NCBI GenBank assembly: GCA_018971835.1
Contig: JAGWZW010000007.1
Span: forward strand, 1-64,000
DNA length: 64,000 bases
DNA from: Alphaproteobacteria bacterium
GTDB lineage: Bacteria; Pseudomonadota; Alphaproteobacteria; Micropepsales; Micropepsaceae
Reading direction: 5' to 3'
Made by a program: the position numbers and the translations under genes. The notes beneath the pieces are model-generated. The model was not told where the DNA came from, did not search any database, and saw only the letters and a program-made list of their open reading frames with translations. Numbering within the stretch: the first letter of the stretch is position 1; each line of letters opens with the position of its first letter. Of this stretch, positions 6,029 through 64,000 are shown piece after piece.

Positions 6029-7372
6029 TTACATGGCGCGCACGCGGGAGATAAAGCCGTTCACCTCGCGCTTGAGGATTTCGGCCTGCTGCGACAGATC
6101 GCTGGCGGCGTCGCGCGCCTCGCTGGCCATGCGCCCGGTTTCGGACGACGCCGAGGTGATGCGCACGATATGGGCGGTGACATCCTGCGCACCGCGGGCC
6201 GCGCCTTGCACGCTCTGGGCGATGTCCTGCGTCGAGTTGCGCTGGCGCGCAGTGTCCGCCTCGATGCCGGTCATGATCTGGCTGATATCGGTGATGGAAC
6301 TGGAAATCTGGTCGATGGCTTCGCGCGCCTCGGCGGTAATGCCCTGAATGCCGGAAATCTGCGCGGCGATATCTTCGGTGGCCTTGCTGGTCTGGGTGGC
6401 GAGGTTCTTGACCTCGGAAGCCACCACGCCGAAGCCCTTGCCCGCCTCGCCGGCGCGTGCCGCCTCGATGGTGGCGTTGAGCGCGAGGAACTTGGTCTGC
6501 GAAGCGATGGTCTGCACCAGTTGTACGACCATGCCGATCTTATTGGCCACTTCGGAGAGCGTATGGAAAGTGGCGCTGGTCTTGCGCGCCTGTTCGGCGG
6601 CCCCTTCGGCGCGCTGCGTGGCATTGGTGACACGCTGGCTGATGGCGCCGATGGAGGTCGTCATCTCGTCGGTGGAGGCGGCCACGGTCTGGACGTTGGA
6701 ACTGGCATGGCCGGCGGCGCTGGCCACGGCGTTGGCCTTGCTGCTGGTGTCGTTGGCCACGCGCGACAGCGTTTCGGCATTGCCTTTGAGCCGCCCGGCC
6801 GAAGTGGCGACGCTGTTGACGACGTTGGCTACCAGCACGTTGAAGTTCTGGATTTCCTCGTCCAGTTCGTCGGCACGGCGGGCCTGGCGCTCGGCCTCCG
6901 CGGCCTGCGCCTCGCCTAGCCGCTTGCGCTCGATGCCGTTGGTGCGGAAAACCTCCAGCGCCGCAGCGAGCTGCCCGATCTCGTTGCACCGGCCAAGGCC
7001 CGGAATGGGCGTGTCGAATTTCTGGTCCGCAATCTCGCCCATCGCATGCACGATCTCCTTCAGCGGCACGAGAATGCCGTTCTGGATGGCGTGATAGGTG
7101 ACGATGCAGACCGTCAGCGCGATGACCGTGATGATACCGCAGGCGATCAGGAAGTACCCGAACGCCATGTGCGCCTCTTGATAGGTCTGAAGCGCGTGAA
7201 GATGCGCGGCGCCCTGAAGCGTTGCGAAGTCGCCGGAGAGCTGCGTCATCCGGGTGTTGAGATAGAGGACGGCGATGAAACCGGTGCCGCCGCCGATCGC
7301 CAGCAGGCCCAGCAGGGCCGTCACCACACCGCCGACAAAAAATCGAATGGTCCTGTTGCTTTCGGTGAACAT
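6029..7372 (-). CDS. methyl-accepting chemotaxis protein
   Basis: Inner-membrane chemoreceptor of 447 residues. A first membrane helix lies at about 10-34 and a second at about 71-95, enclosing only some 35 periplasmic residues, so there is no full ligand-binding domain. A HAMP linker follows (about 96-150), then a long signalling coiled coil. The hairpin tip is [19 protein letters not shown], with [12 protein letters not shown] after it, the conserved CheA/CheW contact. The minimal sensor suggests detection through the membrane, an internal cue or a partner protein. No other che or fla gene lies nearby, so it is an orphan receptor. Confidence 0.93.
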
Positions 7373-7504
7373 GGCCCGAAGCGAAAGCCCCCGTGATGAC
7401 TGCGCACGACGTTATTTCACCACGGCCGTCAAGAACCCGTTAAAGAACACAAAAAATCCAGGGTTTGAGGGATAACAGCTCGCAACAGCCCGACGCCTTC
7501 GCCG

Positions 7505-8416
7505 TCACACCGCTTCCGCCGCCAGCGCAGGCTCGCTGTCCGCCGCCAGCAGCGCGAGAAAGGCCTGCGATACCTTGGAGCGATAGCGTTCGCGGTGGCG
7601 CACCGCGTTGAACGGACGAACCGGCAGGCTGACATTGGCGGCCGACAGCGTACCGGCGCGCAGCCCCGATTCCACCACCAGTTCGGAAATGGCGGTGATG
7701 CCGGCCCCCGTTTCCACTGCCGAGCGCACCGCCTCGCTCGACGGCAGTTCGAGCACCACCTTGAGCTGGTCGGCCTTGAGCCCGCGCTCTGCGAGCCAGG
7801 CCTCGAATTCCGAGCGCGTGCCCGAGCCCGTCTCGCGTAGCACCCAGTCGGCCCCGGCCAGATCCTCGGCGGTGAGCCGCTTGCGATCGGCCAAGGCATG
7901 GCCAGGCGGGGTCACGACCACCAGCCGGTCGCGGTCCACCTCCGTCAGTTCCAGCGCCGGATCGGCGATACGCCCCTCCACGAAGCCGATCTCGGCCACG
8001 CCTTCGGCCACCGCCCTGGCGACCTGTGCGGTGTTGCCGATGGAGAGGTGAATCGCGATCTGCGGATGGCGGTGGCGGAACGCCACCAGCCGCTGCGGCA
8101 GCCAGTAGCTGGCGATGGTCTGGCTGGCCTGCACGTTCAGCGTGCCGCGCTTGAGCCCGCTCAGCTCGGCGAGCGCCAGTTCGGCCGCCGCAGCGCGCGC
8201 CAGCACCGCCCGCGCCTCGCCGAGAAAGAGCCTGCCTTCTTCGTTCAGCTCGATGCGGCGGCCGACACGGTGGAACAGCGCCACGCCATAATGGCTTTCA
8301 AGCGCAGCGATGGCGGCGCTCACCGCCGACTGGGTGAGATGCAGGGCCTCGGCCGCGCGCGTCACATGCTCGCGCTCGGCCACCGCCACAAAGATGCGGA
8401 GCTGTTCAAGCGTCAT
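7505..8416 (-). CDS. LysR-family regulator (YeiE/CysB-like position)
   Basis: A 303-residue LysR regulator with an N-terminal winged helix-turn-helix (residues 1-60; AAEALHLTQSAVSAAI is the recognition region) and a periplasmic-binding-protein-like effector domain. The gene starts 3 nt after the stop of the YeiH-type exporter and is surely co-transcribed with it. In enterobacteria a LysR protein (YeiE) also neighbours YeiH; the family link to sulfite/sulfate is established knowledge, while the ligand here is inference. The predicted operator is the inverted repeat at 9546-9570, which would make it autoregulatory. Confidence 0.9.
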   Translation of the reverse strand: MTLEQLRIFVAVAEREHVTRAAEALHLTQSAVSAAIAALESHYGVALFHRVGRRIELNEEGRLFLGEARAVLARAAAAELALAELSGLKRGTLNVQASQTIASYWLPQRLVAFRHRHPQIAIHLSIGNTAQVARAVAEGVAEIGFVEGRIADPALELTEVDRDRLVVVTPPGHALADRKRLTAEDLAGADWVLRETGSGTRSEFEAWLAERGLKADQLKVVLELPSSEAVRSAVETGAGITAISELVVESGLRAGTLSAANVSLPVRPFNAVRHRERYRSKVSQAFLALLAADSEPALAAEAV

Positions 8417-52796: not shown

Positions 52797-55238
52797 TTAA
52801 TGGAACCGGCGGGTGATCGTGAAGAAGAATGTCCGGGGCATTCCCGGCGTGCCGGAGACCTGCAACAGCGAGCCGTCGGCGTTGAGCGTTGCCCCCTTGC
52901 TCGCGTAGTAAAGCTTGTCCATCAGGTTATCGACCTGCAGGGCGGCGGACCATTTGTCGTCGGCATCGTTCCAGGCCAGCCGAAGATTGACCAGGCCGTA
53001 ACCATCTTGCGCACCCGCTTCGGTGTTGGCCAGATCGTAATAGACCTTGCTGCGATAGGACCAGTCCAGCCGCAGCATGGCATCGCCGTAGTTGCCGAAA
53101 TCGCGGTCGTATTGCAGGCCGAGGGAGGTGGTCCAGGTCGGCGTGTAGGGCGGGCGGGTGTTCAGCGTGGGCCCGCCAACCTGGCCGGCGGCCGCGCCGA
53201 GGCTGATATTCTTGTACGATAGATAGCCCGCCGTTCCATCCAGCGAGAATCCCGGTGCAAGGATGGCCTGGAAGTTCGCTTCCACGCCCTCGATCCGGGC
53301 ATGACCGGCATTGATGACGATCGTGCCACCATCGCCCAGCGGCGGCGGCAGGAACTCGCTGAGCTGAAGATCGCGATAATCGCTGTAATACGCATCGGCG
53401 TCGAGCAGAAGCCGGTGGTTGAACCACTCCGACTTCACGCCGACTTCATAGGCAGTGAGCTTTTCTTCGCGGAACGGCGTGATATCCGTATCCAGCACCG
53501 GCTTGGGATTGATGCCGCCGGCCTTGTAGCCCGTCGCGAACGAGGCGTAGGTCATCAGATCGGGCGTCCACTGGTACTGGACTGCGACCTTCGGATCGAA
53601 GCGGTTGTCGCGCGTAGTGCCGCCCGCATTCGGCGCATAGGCCGGCGAACCAGCCGGCAGCAGGATATTGTCGGGATTGGCCTGCGTGTAAGTGTGGTCG
53701 TAGGATTGGCTCTTGCTGTCCACGCTGTAGCGCACACCGGCTTCAAGGCTCAGCTTGTCGGTGAAATGATAGACGCCGTGCAGGAAGCCGGACCAACTCG
53801 TGGTGTCCGTCACGTCGTTGAGATTGAAATCCAGGCCATAAACGCCGTCAGGCGCAAACGGCAGAATGCCGGGCTCCACAATGACAGTGGATGGCAGCTC
53901 GATATGGCCCTGATAGGAGCCCTGCGAGTCGAAATAATAAGCGCCGGCGATCCATTCCAGCCTGTTATCCAGGGCCGTGCCGCTCAGATCGAATTCCTCG
54001 CTGACCTGATGATAGGGAAGAACATTGTATTCGAGGAAGGTCGGGATCGGCGTGCCGTCAGTATTGGAGAACTCGGCCGTATATTTCTGGTAGGCCACGA
54101 TATTCTTGACGTGGAAGCCCCAGGGCGTATCCCAGTCGATGGTATCGGACAGGTTCCAGAAGGTTTCGTGGTTGACCGGCGGTGCCGAATAGCCTGTGCC
54201 CGGATTGGCATAGGTCGAATAGGTGGTGAACGGCTTGCCCGTCACGAAGGCCGGGTTGTCGATCGTCAGCCCGTACAGGGACTGGGCGACATAGGTGTTG
54301 TAATTGGCATCGTCGGAGCCCGCCGGCGCCGTGTTCTGCGTGAGGATGGTCATCGCCCCCGGCCCGCTCTGGTCGAGGTGATAGCCGGCGCGCAGGATCA
54401 TCGTAAAGTTGCTATCCGGCGTCCATTTCAGCGCGGCGCTGATGCTGCGCTCATCATCGCCGCCTTCGGTTCCGACCTTGCAGCCGGCAGCCGTCGTCGC
54501 CGGCTTGAGATTGCCGGCCAGTGAGGGATTGGCGCAGGCGAAATCGACGCGGTTGACATAGCCGTCCATCGTGTTGGAGGCGCCGGAAACGCGCAAAGCC
54601 AGCTTGTCCGCCACTAGCGGTATGTCGAAACTTCCCTTGAAGAACATGCGGTCGTAGCTGCCGTATCCCGCCGTAATCTCCCCGCTGCCGTCCCCCTTGG
54701 GCTCCGGCGTGGACAGTAGGATGGCGCCGCCCTCATTGTTCTTGCCGAACAGGGTTCCCTGCGGCCCGCGCAGCACCTGGATGCTGGAGATATCGCCGAG
54801 CTCGAAGATCGAGCCGTACACGGTGCCGTAATAGACGCCGTCTACGTAATATCCGACACCCGGCTGGAACGCGAAGGTGAACTGGTCCTGGCCGATGCCG
54901 CGGATATAGGTCATCGCCGATTTGCCCGAGTAATTGCCCCCCGGCATGATGGTCAGGCTCGGCGTCGATTGCTGCAACCCCAGGACATCGTCGAGGCCGC
55001 GTTTGGAAATATCTTCGGCGGTAAGCGCGGTCACGGAAACGGGCGATGCCTGAAGATTCTCCGCCTTCCTGCGCGCAGTGACGGTGACCGTCTCGATCAT
55101 CGTGGTTTGCTCGGCGGCCGGTTGCGCAGCAGCCCCGCCCCCCGTGACGCCTTGTGCGTTCGCCGCCTGCGCCAAGCTTACCAGTGCCAACGCCGCAGTC
55201 ATCAGCAGGGTCGAACGTCGTGATGTATGATTGCCCAT
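52797..55238 (-). CDS. TonB-dependent outer-membrane receptor
   Basis: An 813-residue receptor with signal peptide (LLMTAALALVSLAQAANAQ), a TonB-box-like ETVTVTARR, a plug domain (about 55-165, with GIGQDQFTFAFQPGVGYYVDG and VLRGPQGTLFGKN) and a 22-strand barrel. The sequence resembles the large sphingomonad receptor family for aromatic or complex organic substrates rather than siderophores. The C-terminus is RRFH, so the usual last Phe is followed by His. The start at 55238 has AGGAGG 7 nt before it. It heads the receptor-hydrolase-lipase operon. Confidence 0.94.
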   Translation of the reverse strand: MGNHTSRRSTLLMTAALALVSLAQAANAQGVTGGGAAAQPAAEQTTMIETVTVTARRKAENLQASPVSVTALTAEDISKRGLDDVLGLQQSTPSLTIMPGGNYSGKSAMTYIRGIGQDQFTFAFQPGVGYYVDGVYYGTVYGSIFELGDISSIQVLRGPQGTLFGKNNEGGAILLSTPEPKGDGSGEITAGYGSYDRMFFKGSFDIPLVADKLALRVSGASNTMDGYVNRVDFACANPSLAGNLKPATTAAGCKVGTEGGDDERSISAALKWTPDSNFTMILRAGYHLDQSGPGAMTILTQNTAPAGSDDANYNTYVAQSLYGLTIDNPAFVTGKPFTTYSTYANPGTGYSAPPVNHETFWNLSDTIDWDTPWGFHVKNIVAYQKYTAEFSNTDGTPIPTFLEYNVLPYHQVSEEFDLSGTALDNRLEWIAGAYYFDSQGSYQGHIELPSTVIVEPGILPFAPDGVYGLDFNLNDVTDTTSWSGFLHGVYHFTDKLSLEAGVRYSVDSKSQSYDHTYTQANPDNILLPAGSPAYAPNAGGTTRDNRFDPKVAVQYQWTPDLMTYASFATGYKAGGINPKPVLDTDITPFREEKLTAYEVGVKSEWFNHRLLLDADAYYSDYRDLQLSEFLPPPLGDGGTIVINAGHARIEGVEANFQAILAPGFSLDGTAGYLSYKNISLGAAAGQVGGPTLNTRPPYTPTWTTSLGLQYDRDFGNYGDAMLRLDWSYRSKVYYDLANTEAGAQDGYGLVNLRLAWNDADDKWSAALQVDNLMDKLYYASKGATLNADGSLLQVSGTPGMPRTFFFTITRRFH

Positions 55239-55282
55239 TGCTTCCCCTCCTACATCCCGCATGTGTACGGGACTATCACTGT

Positions 55283-56280: not shown

Positions 56281-57759
56281 TCAGACCGGCGGCGGCTTGA
56301 ATCCTCCCAGCGCGTCCTCGATCAGCTGAGCCAGACGCAGCGGCGTGCGGTCCTCCAGAAACGGCCCGATAAACTGTACGCCGACCGGCAGGCCGCCGAC
56401 AAAGCGGCCGGTCGGAATCGCTGTGGCCGGAAGATTGGCCACCGTCGCGAGCCCCGGCCACATCAGATTGTCCAAATAGGGGCGCGCCACGCCGTCGACC
56501 ATGATGCGCCGGTCCAGCTGCGCCTCGGGTCCGTCGCCGCTCATGTCATGCGGAAAGGCGACGGTCGGCAGGTTGGGACAGAGCACGACATCGTAATCGC
56601 GGAAGAACTCCCGCCAGGCGCGGAACAGGTGTTCACGCATTTCACAAAGCTCGTTCCAGCGCGCGAGGCTCTGGTGGGCAGCGCGCGCCATGACCGCAGC
56701 ATAGCTGGCCGAATCGCCCTGCGGCGGCGCCACCGTTGCGGCCGCGTGCTCGTCGTCAGGCTTGCGGGCGCTGACGATGCTCATCAGCACTTCGAAATAA
56801 AGCCGGTAGCTGTCGGCAAACGGAATGGGCGGCTTCGCCTTGCGGTCGACCGTGGCGCCGAGCCGCGCGATATCATCGGCAAAGGCCTCGATGGCGGCCT
56901 GTGAAGCGGATTCCAGCGGATAAACCGATGAATCCGCCCACAGCGCCACGCGGTAATCCGAAATCCTGCCGTGGCGCGCCGCCCGCAGTTTCAAAGACCA
57001 CGCTGTATCGGCCAGGGGTTCCGGCCCGGCCAAAACATCCAGCGCCAATTCGAGGTCGTGCGCGCTACGCGCTAGCGGGCCCGCGACCGAAAGCTGCGCA
57101 GAAGACAGCTCGCCCGGCATCGGCGGGATGTGCCCGCGCTTGGGAACGATGCCGAAGCTCGACTTGTGGCCATACACACCGCAGCAATGCGAGGGCACGC
57201 GGATCGAGCCGCCGATATCGCTGCCCAGCTCGAGCGGCGTCAGGCCCGCCGCCAGCGCGGCCGCCGCGCCGCCCGAGGAACCGCCCGCTGTACGCTCAAG
57301 ATTCCACGGATTGCGCGTCAGGCCATATACCGGATTGTAGCTCTGATGATCGCTGGCCATCACCGGCACGTTGGTCTTGCCGAACGGAATGGCCCCCACG
57401 CGCCGGAGCGCAGCAACGGGATCGGCGTCGGTATCCGGCCGATGCTGCGCCAGTGCGGGAAGACCACACGTTGCCGTCATGCCGGCGACTTCATAGGTAT
57501 CCTTGATGGTCATCGGCAGACCGTGCAGCGGTGAGGCGGCGATCACTTCCGCCGAAGCATTATCCGCTTTGCGGGCCGCGGCCCGGGCGCCGTTCTCGTC
57601 CAGCGCCACAACGGCGTTGATCGCCGGATTGCGGGCAGCAACAGCCTTGAAGTGCTCATCAAGCAGTTCCACTGCGCCGATTTCGCGCGCGCGCAGCCTA
57701 GCCACCAGCTTGTAGGCCGGTTCGAAAAGCATGTCGTTGCATTGCCGGTCGCTGGTCAT
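56281..57759 (-). CDS. amidase signature family hydrolase
   Basis: A 492-residue amidase with the Ser-cisSer-Lys triad: Lys86 in MTIKDTYEV, the Ser161/Ser162 pair in TAGGSSGGAAAA and nucleophile Ser185 in GSDIGGSIRVP. No signal peptide, so it acts in the cytosol on an amide of unknown identity. It is not GatA: there is no gatC/gatB nearby and the C-terminal half differs. GGGAG lies 5 nt before the ATG. A 131-nt gap separates it from the SDR gene. Confidence 0.9.
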   Translation of the reverse strand: MTSDRQCNDMLFEPAYKLVARLRAREIGAVELLDEHFKAVAARNPAINAVVALDENGARAAARKADNASAEVIAASPLHGLPMTIKDTYEVAGMTATCGLPALAQHRPDTDADPVAALRRVGAIPFGKTNVPVMASDHQSYNPVYGLTRNPWNLERTAGGSSGGAAAALAAGLTPLELGSDIGGSIRVPSHCCGVYGHKSSFGIVPKRGHIPPMPGELSSAQLSVAGPLARSAHDLELALDVLAGPEPLADTAWSLKLRAARHGRISDYRVALWADSSVYPLESASQAAIEAFADDIARLGATVDRKAKPPIPFADSYRLYFEVLMSIVSARKPDDEHAAATVAPPQGDSASYAAVMARAAHQSLARWNELCEMREHLFRAWREFFRDYDVVLCPNLPTVAFPHDMSGDGPEAQLDRRIMVDGVARPYLDNLMWPGLATVANLPATAIPTGRFVGGLPVGVQFIGPFLEDRTPLRLAQLIEDALGGFKPPPV

Positions 57760-57890: not shown

Positions 57891-58946
57891 TCAGAGGCCG
57901 GTCCACTTCTGATTGTGCCAGCGCAGCCATGAACGGTAGTGATCTGCCAGCGTCTCCGCCGCGGAGCGGTACGCAATCCCCAGTTCCTCAACGCTGCGCC
58001 GATTATCGACAGTGAAGCGGATGCCGAGATGGCCACGGATATAATCCTGCGTCAGGCCGAACAGCGGCCCTAGAATGCGAATGGGCCAGTGCGGCAGCCG
58101 GTAGCGCGGCAAGAGCCACGGCCGTCGGTGATGCGGGCGCAGCATTCGCGCCATGTCGAGAAACGAGATCATGCCCTTTTCTGCCAGGATGTAGCGGCCG
58201 GAAGCAGCCTCGCGTTCCGCCGCGCGCAGATGGGCCAGCGCGACATCGCGCACGTCCACATAGGTGAAGGCAAAATTCGGTGCGCCGTAGAAGAAATAGC
58301 CCTTCAAGAGTTCGTCGAGCAGGAACAGGCTGCCGGAGTCCGATACCGGGGTCAGCGCCGGGCCGAGGATCAGCCCCGGATTGATCGCCACCATCGACCA
58401 GCGCGACTGCCGCCCGCAGATCGCCCAGGCTTCGTGCTCCGCCATCACTTTCGAATAGTGATAGGGATTGTTTTCGAGCGTACTGGTGGTGTTGAAGAAC
58501 CTTTCCTGCAGCACGCCTCCCTGCAGGTTCAGCACATCGATATAGTCGCCGAAGATCGCGCCGACCGTCGAAGTCAGCACCACCCGCTGTACGCTCTGAC
58601 AGGCATCGACGGCACCCAGCACGTTGCGCGTGCCTTCCAGCGCGGGTTCCAGCAATTCGCGCCTGCCGTCCTTGATCTGCTCAGGGAAAAGAAACGGCGA
58701 GGCGACGTGGAACACCACATCGCAACCCTTAGTCGCAGCGTCGAACGATCCGGGCTTCATCAGGTCAGCCTCGAACAGCTTCAGCCGGCCGGGACGGCGC
58801 GCCTTGAGCGCGTTCAGGCTCGTCAGCTTGCCCGGCTTCGACAGGCTGCGGACAGTGGCGTGGACCTGATATCCCTCTGCCAGCAGCAGATCGACCAGAT
58901 GCCCCGCGACATAGCCGCTGCCGCCCGTAACCAGCGCCGTTTTCAT
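57891..58946 (-). CDS. extended SDR (dihydroflavonol-4-reductase-like)
   Basis: A 351-residue NAD(P)-dependent reductase with nucleotide loop TGGSGYVAGH (8-17), Ser126 in TSTVGA, and the catalytic Tyr162-Lys166 pair in NPYHYSKVMAE. The family acts on ketones or sugar nucleotides; in this locus a keto intermediate is plausible. AAGGAG is 7 nt before the ATG at 58946, which overlaps the MFS stop by 4 nt, so it is co-translated with the permease. Confidence 0.9.
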   Translation of the reverse strand: MKTALVTGGSGYVAGHLVDLLLAEGYQVHATVRSLSKPGKLTSLNALKARRPGRLKLFEADLMKPGSFDAATKGCDVVFHVASPFLFPEQIKDGRRELLEPALEGTRNVLGAVDACQSVQRVVLTSTVGAIFGDYIDVLNLQGGVLQERFFNTTSTLENNPYHYSKVMAEHEAWAICGRQSRWSMVAINPGLILGPALTPVSDSGSLFLLDELLKGYFFYGAPNFAFTYVDVRDVALAHLRAAEREAASGRYILAEKGMISFLDMARMLRPHHRRPWLLPRYRLPHWPIRILGPLFGLTQDYIRGHLGIRFTVDNRRSVEELGIAYRSAAETLADHYRSWLRWHNQKWTGL

Positions 58947-60136
58947 GTTACATCTCCTTGCATTACTTCGTCCGGCGCAAGTTGGGCCCGCAGCCAATAT
59001 TTGCGGCCGCCCCAGACAAGTGCCAGCGATGCCAGCGTGCAGCAAGAACCGACCAGCGCAGCGGCACGCACGTTGTCGTTGCCGACCGCGAGCGAGGCCA
59101 TGAACGGCCCGAAAGCCAGCCCCAGCAGTTGCGCGGCCGGCACCAGCACCGCCACCCGCCCCTCACCATCGGCGCGAAACGTCAGGCCGAATTGAAATGG
59201 GTTGAGAAAGAGCCACACGAAGGCAAGCGCCGCGCACAACACCACAAATCTGCCGGCTGCATTGTGCGGAAGAAAATAAAGTCCGGCCGTCACCGCCGTC
59301 AACACCAGCGCACCGGCGCAGACGGTTGTAACGACATCGAGCCTGCGCACCAGCATGATCGCCGCCAGGCCGCCGGTCACCTGCACCAGCAGCACGCCGG
59401 AAACCAGCGCCTGCGCCTCCTCAGCCGAAAGCCCGGCGGACCGGCCGAGCGGTTCGAGATAGGCCCAGATTGCACCCAGTCCGGCCATCTGCAGGAAGGC
59501 GATGGCGAGCGGCAGCACGCGGCCGATGGTCCAGATAACTTTGCCGTCCGCCTCTTTGGCCAACGGTGCAAGATCGGGTGCAAGTTCCGCAGCCAGCAGC
59601 GCGCAAAGCACAAGAAGTGCGGCCAGCGCTACGAAAGCGCCGCGCCAGCCGGCATGGGGAACGACGACACCGGCGAACAACGCGGCAGCCACAGCCTGGA
59701 TCACGGTCTGCACGACCACAAACACGGCGGCGGCGCGGTCCGGCTCGCGCGCGCGCACGATGGTGCAGGTCGCCACCCAGACCAGCACACCTTCCGCAAA
59801 TCCAGCCACGCAGCGCAGCAACGCAAGCGCGGCATCGCCCCCGAAATACGGCGTCGCCAAATCGATACCGGCGACCAGCACAGCCGCAATCACGGCGATC
59901 AGGCGATAGCGAAGGACGGGCAGAGCCGCATCGCTTGACGCCACGCCGATGCCAACCGTCATGATCTCGCCCATCGCGATGAGGCCGATACCCGACATCG
60001 TGATGCGATGCGCATCGATCAGGGCACCCAGCAGGATCGGCTGCAGCCCCAGAACGACCAGCGCCAGCGAGCCAATCAGCAAGGCAACGGATATCTGGGC
60101 GGGGCCCACTTGCGGGAATGATGTCTGCTCCGCCAT
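58943..60136 (-). CDS. MFS transporter
   Basis: A 397-residue permease with twelve hydrophobic segments. Classic MFS loop motifs are weak (no clear GRxGRR), but the two-bundle layout with a central cytosolic loop (about 193-205, APLAKEADGK) is clear, as in sugar or aromatic-acid permeases of the DHA1-like group. It most likely imports the substrate released in the periplasm. It begins 15 nt after the degenerate aldolase gene. Confidence 0.82.
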   Translation of the reverse strand: MAEQTSFPQVGPAQISVALLIGSLALVVLGLQPILLGALIDAHRITMSGIGLIAMGEIMTVGIGVASSDAALPVLRYRLIAVIAAVLVAGIDLATPYFGGDAALALLRCVAGFAEGVLVWVATCTIVRAREPDRAAAVFVVVQTVIQAVAAALFAGVVVPHAGWRGAFVALAALLVLCALLAAELAPDLAPLAKEADGKVIWTIGRVLPLAIAFLQMAGLGAIWAYLEPLGRSAGLSAEEAQALVSGVLLVQVTGGLAAIMLVRRLDVVTTVCAGALVLTAVTAGLYFLPHNAAGRFVVLCAALAFVWLFLNPFQFGLTFRADGEGRVAVLVPAAQLLGLAFGPFMASLAVGNDNVRAAALVGSCCTLASLALVWGGRKYWLRAQLAPDEVMQGDVT

Positions 60137-60151
60137 CTCACCCCGCCCTTT

Positions 60152-60787
60152 CTAATATTTGTTGCTGTCAACCGGCAGACACCCGGCGGCGAAGGCTTCG
60201 GCGGCACGCTTTTCATCCGTGCCGAGCCGACCGGCGGCGATGCGCTGCACCCAGCGCGGAACCCTGGTGAGATCGCCGCCCGACGCGGCGGCTAGCACAT
60301 AGGCGGTGGAGCATTTCTCGAACAACTCCGCATTAAGTGCGAGCCGGCGCGCGGTCATGCCCAGGCAAAGCGGCTTCCCGCGGAGCATCAGCGCGTTGGC
60401 GCCACCCTTCAGCGCCGTGGCAAGAGCGGCTTCGCTGTCCACTGGCGGCGGCATGAGGCCGATATGGCGAATCTGCTCGTCGAACAGTTCGGGCAGCGCA
60501 CCGCCGAAACGGCCAAGCATGGTGCCAAACATCCCGCCGCCCCAGGCGATAGCGCCGGCATCGCCCCGCAGATCGTAGATAACAGCGTGGATGCGCGCCT
60601 CATCGGCCACAGTCGAAGCGTCGCTGGTAACACGACGCGGGTTTGCCGCCGGAGAATCCGCAAACCACATTTGCGGTGTGTCCGGGCAGCGCAGCGACAG
60701 GCTTGCCGCCGGTCCGAGCAGATTCTTGGCGGCCAGCCGGCCGGCGGTCGCGCGCCACAATTCTTCCAGCGTTTCGGATGTCGCCAT
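60152..60787 (-). CDS. class II aldolase/adducin-fold protein lacking metal ligands
   Basis: A 211-residue protein with the overall pattern of class II aldolases (N-terminal LEELWRATAGRLAAKNLLG..SLSLR; EARIHAVIYDLRGDAG like the E-x3-H helix). Compared with the intact aldolase at 62298-62942, the HTH zinc ligands become AWGG (residues 81-84) and the third ligand in LLHNHG becomes MLRGKP (134-139). Glu63 is kept. It may be a non-metal enzyme, for example an isomerase or dehydratase of the same fold, or a partner subunit. Start at 60787 with GAGG upstream; 4 nt after the aminomutase-like gene. Confidence 0.75.
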   Translation of the reverse strand: MATSETLEELWRATAGRLAAKNLLGPAASLSLRCPDTPQMWFADSPAANPRRVTSDASTVADEARIHAVIYDLRGDAGAIAWGGGMFGTMLGRFGGALPELFDEQIRHIGLMPPPVDSEAALATALKGGANALMLRGKPLCLGMTARRLALNAELFEKCSTAYVLAAASGGDLTRVPRWVQRIAAGRLGTDEKRAAEAFAAGCLPVDSNKY

Positions 60788-60791
60788 CGCC

Positions 60792-62261
60792 TCACACCAA
60801 TTTGAAGACATCTTCGAAGCGGCCGAGCGCTTCGTCGATAACTTCGTCCGTATCGGCGAGGCTGGTGTAGATGCGGCTGCCCGCCAGCGTGATAAGGCCG
60901 TGGGCAGCATAGGCCGCGCCCATTTCCTCCATCATGTGCTTGCGGCCCTTGGCCTCATCCTTGGCGCGCCACAGCTTGTAGAGATTGCTGGTATCGAGCA
61001 GCAGCACGCCCGAAGTCTGCAGGTGGACGATCGAGCCCATGTTGTACACCACATAGGGCAGACCCTGGCGCGCGATGATCTCTTCAAGCCCCTTGCGCAA
61101 GCGATCGCCGGCGCGCCCGGCCTTGGCGGCGGCATCGAGGCGCTCGGCCTCCAGCAGCGCATGATAGCCCGCGACACAGGACAGCGGATTGGCCGATAGC
61201 GTGCCGCCGACGAAGGCGCGGCGACTGCTGGTGCCGATGCCGCCGACCAGCAGCATCATGATATCGCGCCGTCCGCCAACGGCACCGGCCATCGGATAAC
61301 CGCCGGTGAGACATTTGCCGAGCACTGTGAGATCGGGCGTCACGTTGAAATAGCCTTGTGCGCCACCCGGCCCGAGCCGAAAACCGCTCACCACCTCATC
61401 GAAGATCAGCAGCGCGCCGAACTCGTCGCACAGCTTGCGCACCTGGGCGTTGTAATCGCGATGCACGGGCCGTGTGCCACTTTCAGGGCCGAGTGGCTCC
61501 AGCAACACCGCCGCGGTGCCGCCGCGCATCCGGTTCCATTGCAGCTTGCGGCGCAGCGCCCCCAGATCGTTGGGATGGCATTCCTGGGTGCAGGCCGTGG
61601 CGCCGCGCGGAATACCGACCGCTTCCATGCGCCCGGTGCCCGGCAGACGCATGCCGTAGACCATCTGATCGCTCCAGCCGTGATAGGCGCCTCCGATCTT
61701 GATGATCCATTTGCGTTCGGTATAGGCGCGCGCCAGGCGGATCGCGCCCATCACCGCTTCGGTGCCCGAACCGAGCAGGCGCAGCATCTCGATACTCGGC
61801 ACCATGCGGCAAACCAGTTCCGCCAGCTTGACTTCATATTCGTGCAGCAGGCCGGTGGTCGGTCCGCAGGAATCCAGAATCTCGTTCACTTTGGCGCGCA
61901 CGGCAGGCGGATTGGAGCCGAGCAGGGTCGGCCCGCCCGCCTGCAGAAAGTCGATGTAACTGTTGCCGTCCACGTCGGTGAGATACGCCCCCTTCGCGCC
62001 GGCGATTGCCAGCGGGAACGGATAATTGAAGGCCAGGTTGTGCTGCACGCCGCCGGGGATAACGGCCTGCGCCTCTTCGGAAAGGCGTTTGGAACCGGCA
62101 CAGCGTTCCTCGAAGTGACGCATCACCTTTTCCATGCCGTCCGCACCGATACGGCGCATCGGCTGGCCGACAAGGTCGGCAAAGCGCCGATAAAGCGCAT
62201 CGGTATCCGGCCAGCTCGAAATCGCCGGCGTGGTTTGTGGAGCTGTCGAGTTGCTATCCAT
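60792..62261 (-). CDS. class III aminotransferase, glutamate-1-semialdehyde-aminomutase-like
   Basis: A 489-residue PLP enzyme. Marks: LLGSGTEAVMGAIRLAR (phosphate cup), IIKIGGAYHGWSD, IFDEVVSGFR with Asp288 to the PLP ring, and the PLP lysine Lys316 in VLGKCLTGGYP. It resembles HemL but is longer, with an extra 50-60-residue N-terminus, and lies in a catabolic operon, so it is not the housekeeping HemL. It should move an amino group within, or onto, an aldehyde/keto intermediate. ATG at 62261 has AGGTGA 5 nt upstream; a GTG at 62270 is possible. Confidence 0.88.
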   Translation of the reverse strand: MDSNSTAPQTTPAISSWPDTDALYRRFADLVGQPMRRIGADGMEKVMRHFEERCAGSKRLSEEAQAVIPGGVQHNLAFNYPFPLAIAGAKGAYLTDVDGNSYIDFLQAGGPTLLGSNPPAVRAKVNEILDSCGPTTGLLHEYEVKLAELVCRMVPSIEMLRLLGSGTEAVMGAIRLARAYTERKWIIKIGGAYHGWSDQMVYGMRLPGTGRMEAVGIPRGATACTQECHPNDLGALRRKLQWNRMRGGTAAVLLEPLGPESGTRPVHRDYNAQVRKLCDEFGALLIFDEVVSGFRLGPGGAQGYFNVTPDLTVLGKCLTGGYPMAGAVGGRRDIMMLLVGGIGTSSRRAFVGGTLSANPLSCVAGYHALLEAERLDAAAKAGRAGDRLRKGLEEIIARQGLPYVVYNMGSIVHLQTSGVLLLDTSNLYKLWRAKDEAKGRKHMMEEMGAAYAAHGLITLAGSRIYTSLADTDEVIDEALGRFEDVFKLV

Positions 62262-62297
62262 GATCGTCACCTGTCGCGCAATGAGATGGCTTACACG

Positions 62298-62942
62298 TTA
62301 CGCCCCGCCGAGCGTCGCCAGGACGGCGGCAAGGGCTGCAGTGTGTTCGGGCTCACGGCGCATCCGCGCCTCTATCTGCTGCTGCAGGCACGCGCGGACC
62401 AACCGCTCCAAATCGTCCACCGTTTGCAGCGCCGTCTCGATGCTGGTGCCGCAACACAGCACGCCGTGATTGTGCAGGAGATAAGCATTGGCGTCATCGC
62501 GCAATGCGCGGCCGAGCAGGAAAGCCAGGAGGCCCGTGCCGGAGGGCATGTAGCCGACCAGTGGCACCTTGGGCCCCAGCGTGCAGCGAAGCAGCGGCGC
62601 TTCGACGGTAATGGGCTTTCCAAGCAGGGCCGCAGCGCTAGCCACAGGTTGATGGGTATGGATACTGCACCAGACATCAGGGCGACGACGCAGCACGCGC
62701 GCGTGCAGCCCAGTTTCGACGGAAGGTGTTCCGGCCCCGTCCATTTTTTTGAGATCGGCAAGGCGCATGACGCAGACCTCGTCCGCCGTCATCGCGAAAT
62801 AGTCCGTGGCGGAAGGCGTGACCGCAAATTGCGACGCATCGATTCGTACGGCGAGATTGCCGCCGGTGCCGGCGAAATAGCCTTTGCGCGACAACGCCAC
62901 GCAAAGATCGACGATGCGCTGGCGTGTTTCAAGCGCAAGCAT
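62298..62942 (-). CDS. class II aldolase (fuculose/ribulose-phosphate aldolase family)
   Basis: A 214-residue zinc aldolase with Glu76 (SVETGLH), metal ligands His95 and His97 (SIHTHQPV) and His159 (LLHNHG), and the phosphate-binding AGTGGNLAVR near residue 24. The family splits sugar 1-phosphates into dihydroxyacetone phosphate and an aldehyde. It overlaps the end of the kinase gene by 14 nt, which points to kinase then aldolase acting in sequence, as for fuculose or rhamnulose, though the sugar is not identified. Confidence 0.92.
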   Translation of the reverse strand: MLALETRQRIVDLCVALSRKGYFAGTGGNLAVRIDASQFAVTPSATDYFAMTADEVCVMRLADLKKMDGAGTPSVETGLHARVLRRRPDVWCSIHTHQPVASAAALLGKPITVEAPLLRCTLGPKVPLVGYMPSGTGLLAFLLGRALRDDANAYLLHNHGVLCCGTSIETALQTVDDLERLVRACLQQQIEARMRREPEHTAALAAVLATLGGA

Positions 62943-64000
62943 GGTGGGCCTCCTTCCCGGATGGATTGAGCTGCCGGTAAACCGGCGCCAGCTTCCGCTG
63001 CAACATCTTGAAAGCGCCGAAGCGGTCGTCGTAGAGTGCCCGCAACGCCTGATCCGGTTCGTATATCCGGCGTGTACGGCGCAGAGCCGCGAGGTCGGAG
63101 AAGCATAATGCGTTCATGCCGACCGCGGCGATGAACGCTGCGCCAACAGCATTGGCCTGGATCGGATTTTCGAGTTGGCGGACCGGGCGGCCGCTCACAT
63201 CCGCGATGATCTGGCACCACAGATCGGATTGCGCGCCGCCACCCACGGCCGCGACCGGTCCCGCGGCGCATCCGACCATCTGCGTGAACGGTTCCATCAT
63301 CCAGCGTGTGTTGAGCGCTACGCCCTCCATGAAGGCGCGAATGACGTCTTCGCGCGTGTGCGAGAGCGAGAGATTGACGAGGCCGGCGCGCAGGCTGGGA
63401 TCGTCCACCGGCGTGCGTTCGCCGAACAACCAGGGCATATAGATCAGGCCGTTGGCGCCGGCGGGTACGCGCGCGGCGATCCGGTTCAGCACTTCGTAGA
63501 CGTCCGGCCGTTCTTCTTCGGTCAGGAATTCGTCGGGATGAAAAAGGATGCGGTCGCGCAGGAACGACAGGTTGGCCCCTGCCGTCGACTGGATCGCCAT
63601 CGCTAGATAGCGCCCGTCCACCGCGCAGGGCACCGCGGCCATTTTGCGCATCACATCCGTCTTCATGGACGGGACATGGGCGCCGAGCCACGAGGAGGTG
63701 CCTAGATAGAGGTGGGCAGCGTAATCTTCCACCGCGGCGCCGACTGCGACCGCGGAATTGTCTACCGCGCCGGCAACCACGATCGTCTGGGGCAAAAGCC
63801 CCAGTTGCTCCGCCACTTCCGGCAGAAGCGGACCGAGCACATCCGTCGATTTCACCAGATCGGGCAGCTTGGCGCGCTCGATACCAAGCATTCCGATCAG
63901 CCGATCGTCGTAGCGAACGCGGGAAAGATCACGATTGTCTGTGACCCAGGTGGTCAGGATCGAATCGATGGTGGCGCAGAACCGCCCGGTCAGCCGCAGG
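62929..64000 (-). CDS. FGGY carbohydrate kinase (5' part beyond window)
   Basis: The last 357 codons of an FGGY kinase; the N-terminal ATPase half begins beyond position 64000. Visible signatures: VVAGAVDNSAVAVGAAV with the catalytic aspartate, YLGTSSWLG, and GVALNTRWMMEPF followed by VGGGAQSDLWCQIIADV, the FGGY family signature. It resembles xylulokinases most. It is the most upstream gene seen of the catabolic operon and presumably phosphorylates the imported substrate before the aldolase cuts it. It is truncated only by the window edge. Confidence 0.92.
   Translation of the reverse strand, partial: LRLTGRFCATIDSILTTWVTDNRDLSRVRYDDRLIGMLGIERAKLPDLVKSTDVLGPLLPEVAEQLGLLPQTIVVAGAVDNSAVAVGAAVEDYAAHLYLGTSSWLGAHVPSMKTDVMRKMAAVPCAVDGRYLAMAIQSTAGANLSFLRDRILFHPDEFLTEEERPDVYEVLNRIAARVPAGANGLIYMPWLFGERTPVDDPSLRAGLVNLSLSHTREDVIRAFMEGVALNTRWMMEPFTQMVGCAAGPVAAVGGGAQSDLWCQIIADVSGRPVRQLENPIQANAVGAAFIAAVGMNALCFSDLAALRRTRRIYEPDQALRALYDDRFGAFKMLQRKLAPVYRQLNPSGKEAHHACA

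Follow-up and report, generated by a model that had tools for sequence, protein, structure and literature searches.

The window, a contiguous stretch of 64,000 nucleotides, carries a gene cluster in the order FGGY kinase, ald, AT3, degAld, MFS, SDR and amidase, in which the class II aldolase fold is encoded twice. ald (62298..62942, minus strand) specifies an intact FucA-like class II aldolase of 214 aa, as judged from Pfam, alignment and structure. degAld (60152..60787, minus strand) specifies a 211-aa protein of the same fold that lacks the metal site, as judged from its open reading frame, Pfam, alignment and the predicted structure. What is the role of a metal-less copy in an operon that already holds a complete aldolase? 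The reading proposed here takes ald as the alpha subunit and degAld as the beta subunit of one enzyme.

Integrity and fold of the metal-less copy

The degAld open reading frame is intact. It lies 4 nt past the aminotransferase stop, its end is 15 nt from the MFS start, and its GC3 is 0.745 versus 0.73–0.78 in the adjoining genes, which agrees with the preliminary description of an undamaged, tightly packed gene with ordinary codon use. The description also held that the gene is under selection, and the homologues bear this out. We found 73 of them (74 loci with the window included), 20 columns are invariant across the 58 homologues that were aligned, and dN/dS is 0.04–0.34 in 14 close homologue pairs, the same range as for the intact aldolase. 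Purifying selection acts on the degAld family and on ald. The Pfam profile PF00596 scores degAld at 19.2 bits, below the gathering threshold of 22.2 bits, and no NCBIfam model matches it.

The AlphaFold2 model of degAld (pLDDT 95.4) can be superimposed on the E. coli FucA mutant 1e48 with a Z score of 19.4 and an rmsd of 2.3 over 181 residues, and on the E. coli FucA entries in general with Z scores of about 19 and rmsd values of 2.2–2.6 over about 182 residues. The predicted structure thereby assigns degAld to the class II aldolase/adducin fold, with a structural match far above chance. The fold common to ald and degAld is that of E. coli FucA and of the deoxyribose-phosphate aldolase of B. 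thuringiensis (6BTD).

Profile–profile alignment puts W82 and G84 of degAld at the positions of FucA H92 and H94 (hhalign) and E63 at that of FucA E73, and in the multiple alignment FucA H155, the third ligand, falls within the RGKP stretch of degAld. AWGG (residues 81–84; 60536..60547, minus strand) stands in place of the HTH metal ligands, and RGKP (residues 136–139; 60371..60382, minus strand) in place of the third His ligand. The loss of all zinc ligands, first noticed in the window protein, extends to the family: no histidine occupies the three metal-ligand columns in the 58 aligned homologues, and the zinc histidines were seen in none of the 73 homologues in the alignments made. A search of the family alignment for histidines restored nearby, for ligands at shifted positions and for an alternative conserved His cluster found none; conserved histidines are limited to H67, which corresponds to a His with a structural role in the fold, and H108, where His or Gln occurs. 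AWGG and RGKP did not prove to be conserved motifs, since their letters vary among the homologues and only the absence of histidine is conserved. The statement that the glutamate helix is kept holds in part: the helix is kept and the window protein has E63, but Glu is present at the FucA E73 column in only 8 of the 58 aligned homologues (11/74 in another alignment). The degAld family therefore has neither the His triad of class II aldolases nor a conserved catalytic Glu73.

Complementary conservation at the active site

The active site of FucA is built by two adjacent subunits (PMC11274987). Tyr113, contributed by the neighbouring subunit, deprotonates the C4 hydroxyl, and Glu73 acts on C3 (PMC11841055). 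We compared the FucA columns in three groups, comprising 54 ald proteins, 58 degAld proteins and 22 solitary aldolases, and the placement of degAld and ald on these columns was confirmed by hhalign. The cis residues N29, E73, H92, H94 and H155 are invariant in 54/54 ald and 22/22 solitary aldolases, whereas the same columns are unconserved among the 58 degAld proteins. The trans loop residues P109, H112, Y113 and M114 are kept in 21 of the 22 solitary aldolases, as is Y209.

ald has the His triad, Glu73 and Asn29 of a FucA-type enzyme, keeps most of the phosphate-site residues, and its HTH metal ligands (H95-T96-H97; 62652..62660, minus strand) are invariant. The trans residues of FucA are missing from ald. 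No Tyr is listed at the Tyr113 column, the loop at that place (residues 110–122; 62577..62615, minus strand) is devoid of Tyr and unconserved in the ald family, and Leu occupies the Tyr209 column in 50 of 54 proteins. In degAld, the corresponding loop, P99-E-L-F102-D103-E104-Q105-I-R107-H108 (60464..60493, minus strand), contains the invariant residues F102-D103-E104-Q105 and R107, and D103 falls in the Tyr113 column, so that the metal-less copy has an invariant Asp where FucA has its tyrosine. The motif P-x-x-F-D-E-Q-x-R is found in 57–58 of the 58 aligned proteins, and the C-terminal Tyr211 (60155..60157, minus strand) is invariant in 74/74.

The same pattern emerged from permutation tests, which take the columns as exchangeable and ignore phylogeny. 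Mean conservation in ald is 0.995 for the cis residues and 0.36 for the trans loop (p(low) 0.0003), which is among its least conserved parts, while degAld has values of 0.38 for the cis residues (p 0.002) and 0.995 for the trans loop (p<5e-5). At the level of sequence, conservation is complementary: ald keeps what corresponds to the metal half of the FucA site and degAld what corresponds to the trans-loop half.

We propose, with a probability of roughly 0.8, that degAld is the metal-less obligate beta subunit of a heteromeric class II aldolase whose composite sites combine the metal of ald with the loop of degAld. In a FucA-type tetramer, one subunit provides the metal, Glu73 and the phosphate-binding residues, and its neighbour the Tyr113 loop and the C-terminal tail. 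After a duplication, these roles of FucA would have been divided: ald (alpha) would have retained the metal, phosphate and Glu half and lost the trans loop, and degAld (beta) would have lost the metal half and retained the invariant loop. We infer a physical complex of ald and degAld with 2:2 stoichiometry, in which Asp103, at the Tyr113 position, would be the likely proton shuttle (acid/base). Of the four sites in an alternating alpha-beta-alpha-beta ring, two would be composite and functional and the other two dead, and neither protein alone would be expected to be fully active. Such a ring predicts one surviving half per linked gene, which regulation and decay do not.

Comparison with known systems shows which elements of this proposal have precedents. 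In the FucA homotetramer, both halves of the site are encoded in one chain, whereas here they would be split over two genes. Class II folds also assemble into a heteromeric tetramer in the aldolase domains of alpha/beta adducin (PDB 8IAH; PMC12599920), which the degAld model matches with a Z score of 16; the adducin heads, however, bind actin and are not enzymes, whereas the present pair is encoded in a bacterial operon and includes an intact metal enzyme. The trypanosomatid deoxyhypusine synthase, also a tetramer, is reported to need a catalytically dead paralogue for its activity (PMC3663545), but its fold and reaction are unrelated and its partner is described there as allosteric, whereas degAld is proposed to give a complementary half of the site. 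Pyruvic oxime dioxygenase (8IL8) has the aldolase fold without Glu73 and Tyr113 and a site at the subunit interface (PMC11841055); unlike degAld, it keeps the His triad, which holds iron, and it is a homotetramer. Since this enzyme works as a homotetramer without Tyr113, loss of that residue alone would not prove that ald depends on a partner, and the case for a heteromer rests on strict co-occurrence together with the loop that is invariant in degAld. A search of open-access literature yielded nothing that matches a heteromeric class II aldolase or that links this operon to the degradation of sphingolipids. Heteromeric tetramers of the fold and dead activating paralogues were known already; for a bacterial class II aldolase split over two genes, we found no earlier report in that literature.

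Linkage of the two genes and the role of degAld

An intact ald lies near degAld in 72 of the 74 loci, and in the remaining two, L011 and L047, the contig ends before the locus is complete. The order FGGY-ald-AT3-degAld is found in 65 loci and ald directly followed by degAld in seven, with the two truncated loci making up the rest, so that the AT3 gene sits between the two aldolase-fold genes in most operons, an arrangement that counts against a subunit pair. Among 248 related genomes (one family), the ald and degAld profiles identify an identical set of 18, and one gene without the other occurs in none (Fisher p 1e-27, without correction for phylogeny). Two Pseudomonas loci, L036 and L052, carry ald and degAld alone, with an ATGA overlap of the pair in L036; orthologues of AT3 and FGGY were sought in both genomes, and only paralogues of 25–39% identity were found. 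The occurrence of the pair without the other operon enzymes, together with the strict co-occurrence, indicates that the constant partner of degAld is ald. The adjacent aminotransferase AT3 was considered as the partner and rejected, because the pair exists in genomes that have no AT3 or FGGY orthologue. The stand-alone pairs also indicate that in some genomes the aldolase can do without this kinase and transaminase.

In one Deltaproteobacteria MAG contig (L054:179-1372), ald and degAld form a single in-frame fusion ORF. About 25 codons of the N-terminal part of ald are missing just upstream, and the fusion may reflect assembly error or decay; with the N-terminus of ald damaged, it lends weak support to an association of the two proteins.

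The preliminary description had offered two roles for degAld, a repurposed catalyst or a regulatory subunit. That it is a subunit is supported by the reciprocal loss and the co-occurrence, while "regulatory" is probably the wrong word, since the pattern of reciprocal loss implies that half an active site is supplied to ald; structural or catalytic partner, giving half of the active site of ald, is probably the better label. Many pseudoenzymes regulate or stabilise a partner to whose active site they contribute nothing. By analogy, degAld could bind ald and alter its activity or stability only, which would suit the loss of its metal, Glu and phosphate sites, its co-occurrence with ald and the existence of non-catalytic heteromeric class II folds such as the alpha/beta adducin heterotetramer. 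We consider this improbable, because the loop that enters the neighbouring site in FucA is among the most conserved stretches of degAld and is lost in ald, a combination not expected of a subunit that only regulates.

Still less probable is that degAld works by itself, as a homotetrameric enzyme or ligand binder with a new, metal-free site for another pathway intermediate. Invariant or near-invariant residues beyond the trans loop (S31, R148, N152-C159 with the sequence NAELFEKC, R187 and Y211) could form such a site. An independent catalyst is nevertheless disfavoured, because the metal, glutamate and phosphate positions of degAld are unconserved and degAld never occurs without ald where the flanks are complete, including in genomes that lack the other operon enzymes; it would also leave the loss of the trans loop in ald unexplained.

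Sixty genomes chosen as relatives of the window genome were all without degAld, and beyond the window genome itself a clear match is present in five out of 398 genomes in the phylum. The gene is rare and patchy on these counts and probably moves with its operon. The idea of a decaying pseudogene or annotation artefact, to which the sub-threshold Pfam score and the absence from those relatives might lend themselves, can be set aside: recent pseudogene status is refuted by the dN/dS values and invariant columns among so many homologues, the fold is predicted with high confidence, and relatives without degAld are compatible with acquisition of the whole operon.

Operon context and candidate substrates

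The other genes of the window operon bear on the substrate of the proposed heteromeric aldolase. AT3 (60792..62270, minus strand) encodes a class III aminotransferase that resembles glutamate-1-semialdehyde aminomutase in domain and profile matches; an assignment as a fumonisin-type aminopentol transaminase was rejected (97 bits versus 241 bits for glutamate-1-semialdehyde aminomutase). The FGGY-family carbohydrate kinase (62929..63999, minus strand) is cut by the edge of the window and extends to position 64569 of the contig. The MFS transporter (58943..60136, minus strand), identified by a domain match, is the next operon gene and, by locus comparison, a conserved neighbour in many loci. It is followed by an SDR of the NAD-dependent epimerase/dehydratase family (57891..58946, minus strand), of which six other loci have a homologue (62–67% identity) close to the operon. 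Downstream of the operon on the same strand is an amidase (window 56281-57759, PRK06170 equivalog), which is not a conserved neighbour in the other degAld loci and might have N-acyl compounds as substrates, and beyond it lies a long outer-membrane-receptor-like ORF (window 52797-55262). Across the loci, a small secreted protein (43 loci) and an outer-membrane-like protein (42 loci) form a conserved accessory pair upstream of the FGGY gene, with examples at L016:2670-3107 and L064:3022-3924.

The window operon itself holds no sphingolipid-specific enzyme, and sphingosine-1-phosphate (S1P) lyase and sphC/sphD-type genes are present only at other loci. Four Myxococcota-type loci carry ald, degAld and FGGY together, and in those that were read (L051 and L054) an S1P lyase follows FGGY (E 1e-205 for L051 against PDB 3MAD). 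L051:2247-8895 spans two tandem DctP-type binding proteins, ald, degAld, the FGGY kinase and the S1P lyase. About 20 other loci, spread over diverse genera, carry a TAT-type FAD oxidase (TIGR01679) together with an alanine-racemase-type PLP aldolase (sphC/sphD-type) within 8 kb, 13 of them with a cytochrome c as well, and aldehyde dehydrogenases occur in 27 degAld loci. On another contig of the window genome (G000:C53; L082:5839-7407 and about 7250-7650, minus strand), a TIGR01679 FAD oxidase has a c-type cytochrome directly upstream, which are the SphC and SphB gene types. The P. aeruginosa sphBCD/SphR locus comprises a cytochrome c, a TAT FAD oxidase, a PLP aldolase and an AraC regulator; without sphB or sphC, the bacterium does not grow with sphingosine, sphinganine or phytosphingosine (PMC11893366). 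Genes of the same types flank the operon in some degAld loci, but no aldolase pair is described for the P. aeruginosa locus and most degAld loci have no such genes nearby.

The S1P lyase, the sphBCD-like genes, the aldehyde dehydrogenase, the kinase and the transaminase in these neighbourhoods suggest sphingoid-base breakdown, possibly of phytosphingosine to DHAP and a fatty aldehyde. Tentatively, transamination at C2 and phosphorylation at C1 would give a 2-keto 1-phosphate, which the aldolase would cleave between C3 and C4 in a retro-aldol reaction to DHAP and a C15 aldehyde. Cleavage at this bond needs a C4 hydroxyl and would therefore suit the 4-hydroxylated phytosphingosine. As a whole, a new bacterial sphingoid-base route, in which transamination and FGGY phosphorylation yield a ketose-1-phosphate analogue for the composite-site aldolase, is a tentative reading that we hold at less than even odds.

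The operon might instead handle a small sugar or polyol phosphate of the FucA or 5-deoxyribose type, a possibility that we likewise rate somewhat below even. An FGGY kinase with a class II aldolase follows the usual logic of sugar catabolism, and ald finds its best structural matches in the deoxyribose-phosphate aldolase of B. thuringiensis and in FucA. Genome-wide, SphD does not co-occur significantly with degAld (7/18 versus 58/230, p 0.26), so the link to sphingosine is carried by adjacency and the S1P lyase only. It is this adjacency, of S1P lyase in the Myxococcota-type loci and of sphC/sphD-type genes in diverse genera, that speaks against a sugar substrate, and the conserved neighbours did not include any recognisable sugar isomerase. 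At a separate locus (L096), a solitary FucA-like aldolase with the Tyr113 motif precedes a class III aminotransferase that resembles AT3 (33% identity), and no degAld was found; this aldolase may serve the same pathway as a counterpart with a single kind of subunit.

If the heteromeric reading is true, ald and degAld would be a clean natural example of one active site shared out over a duplicated gene pair, and the reciprocal losses could be read in about 70 species. The enzyme would also be a class II aldolase unable to function as a homomer. Automated annotation would go wrong for both genes, with ald labelled an ordinary fuculose-phosphate-type aldolase and degAld given no label at all. The biochemistry of sphingoid-base removal in P. 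aeruginosa is described as unresolved (PMC11893366). If the tentative sphingoid-base route is true, lipid backbones would enter glycolysis through sugar chemistry, and the operon would offer candidate genes for the removal of antimicrobial sphingoid bases by environmental and plant-associated bacteria.
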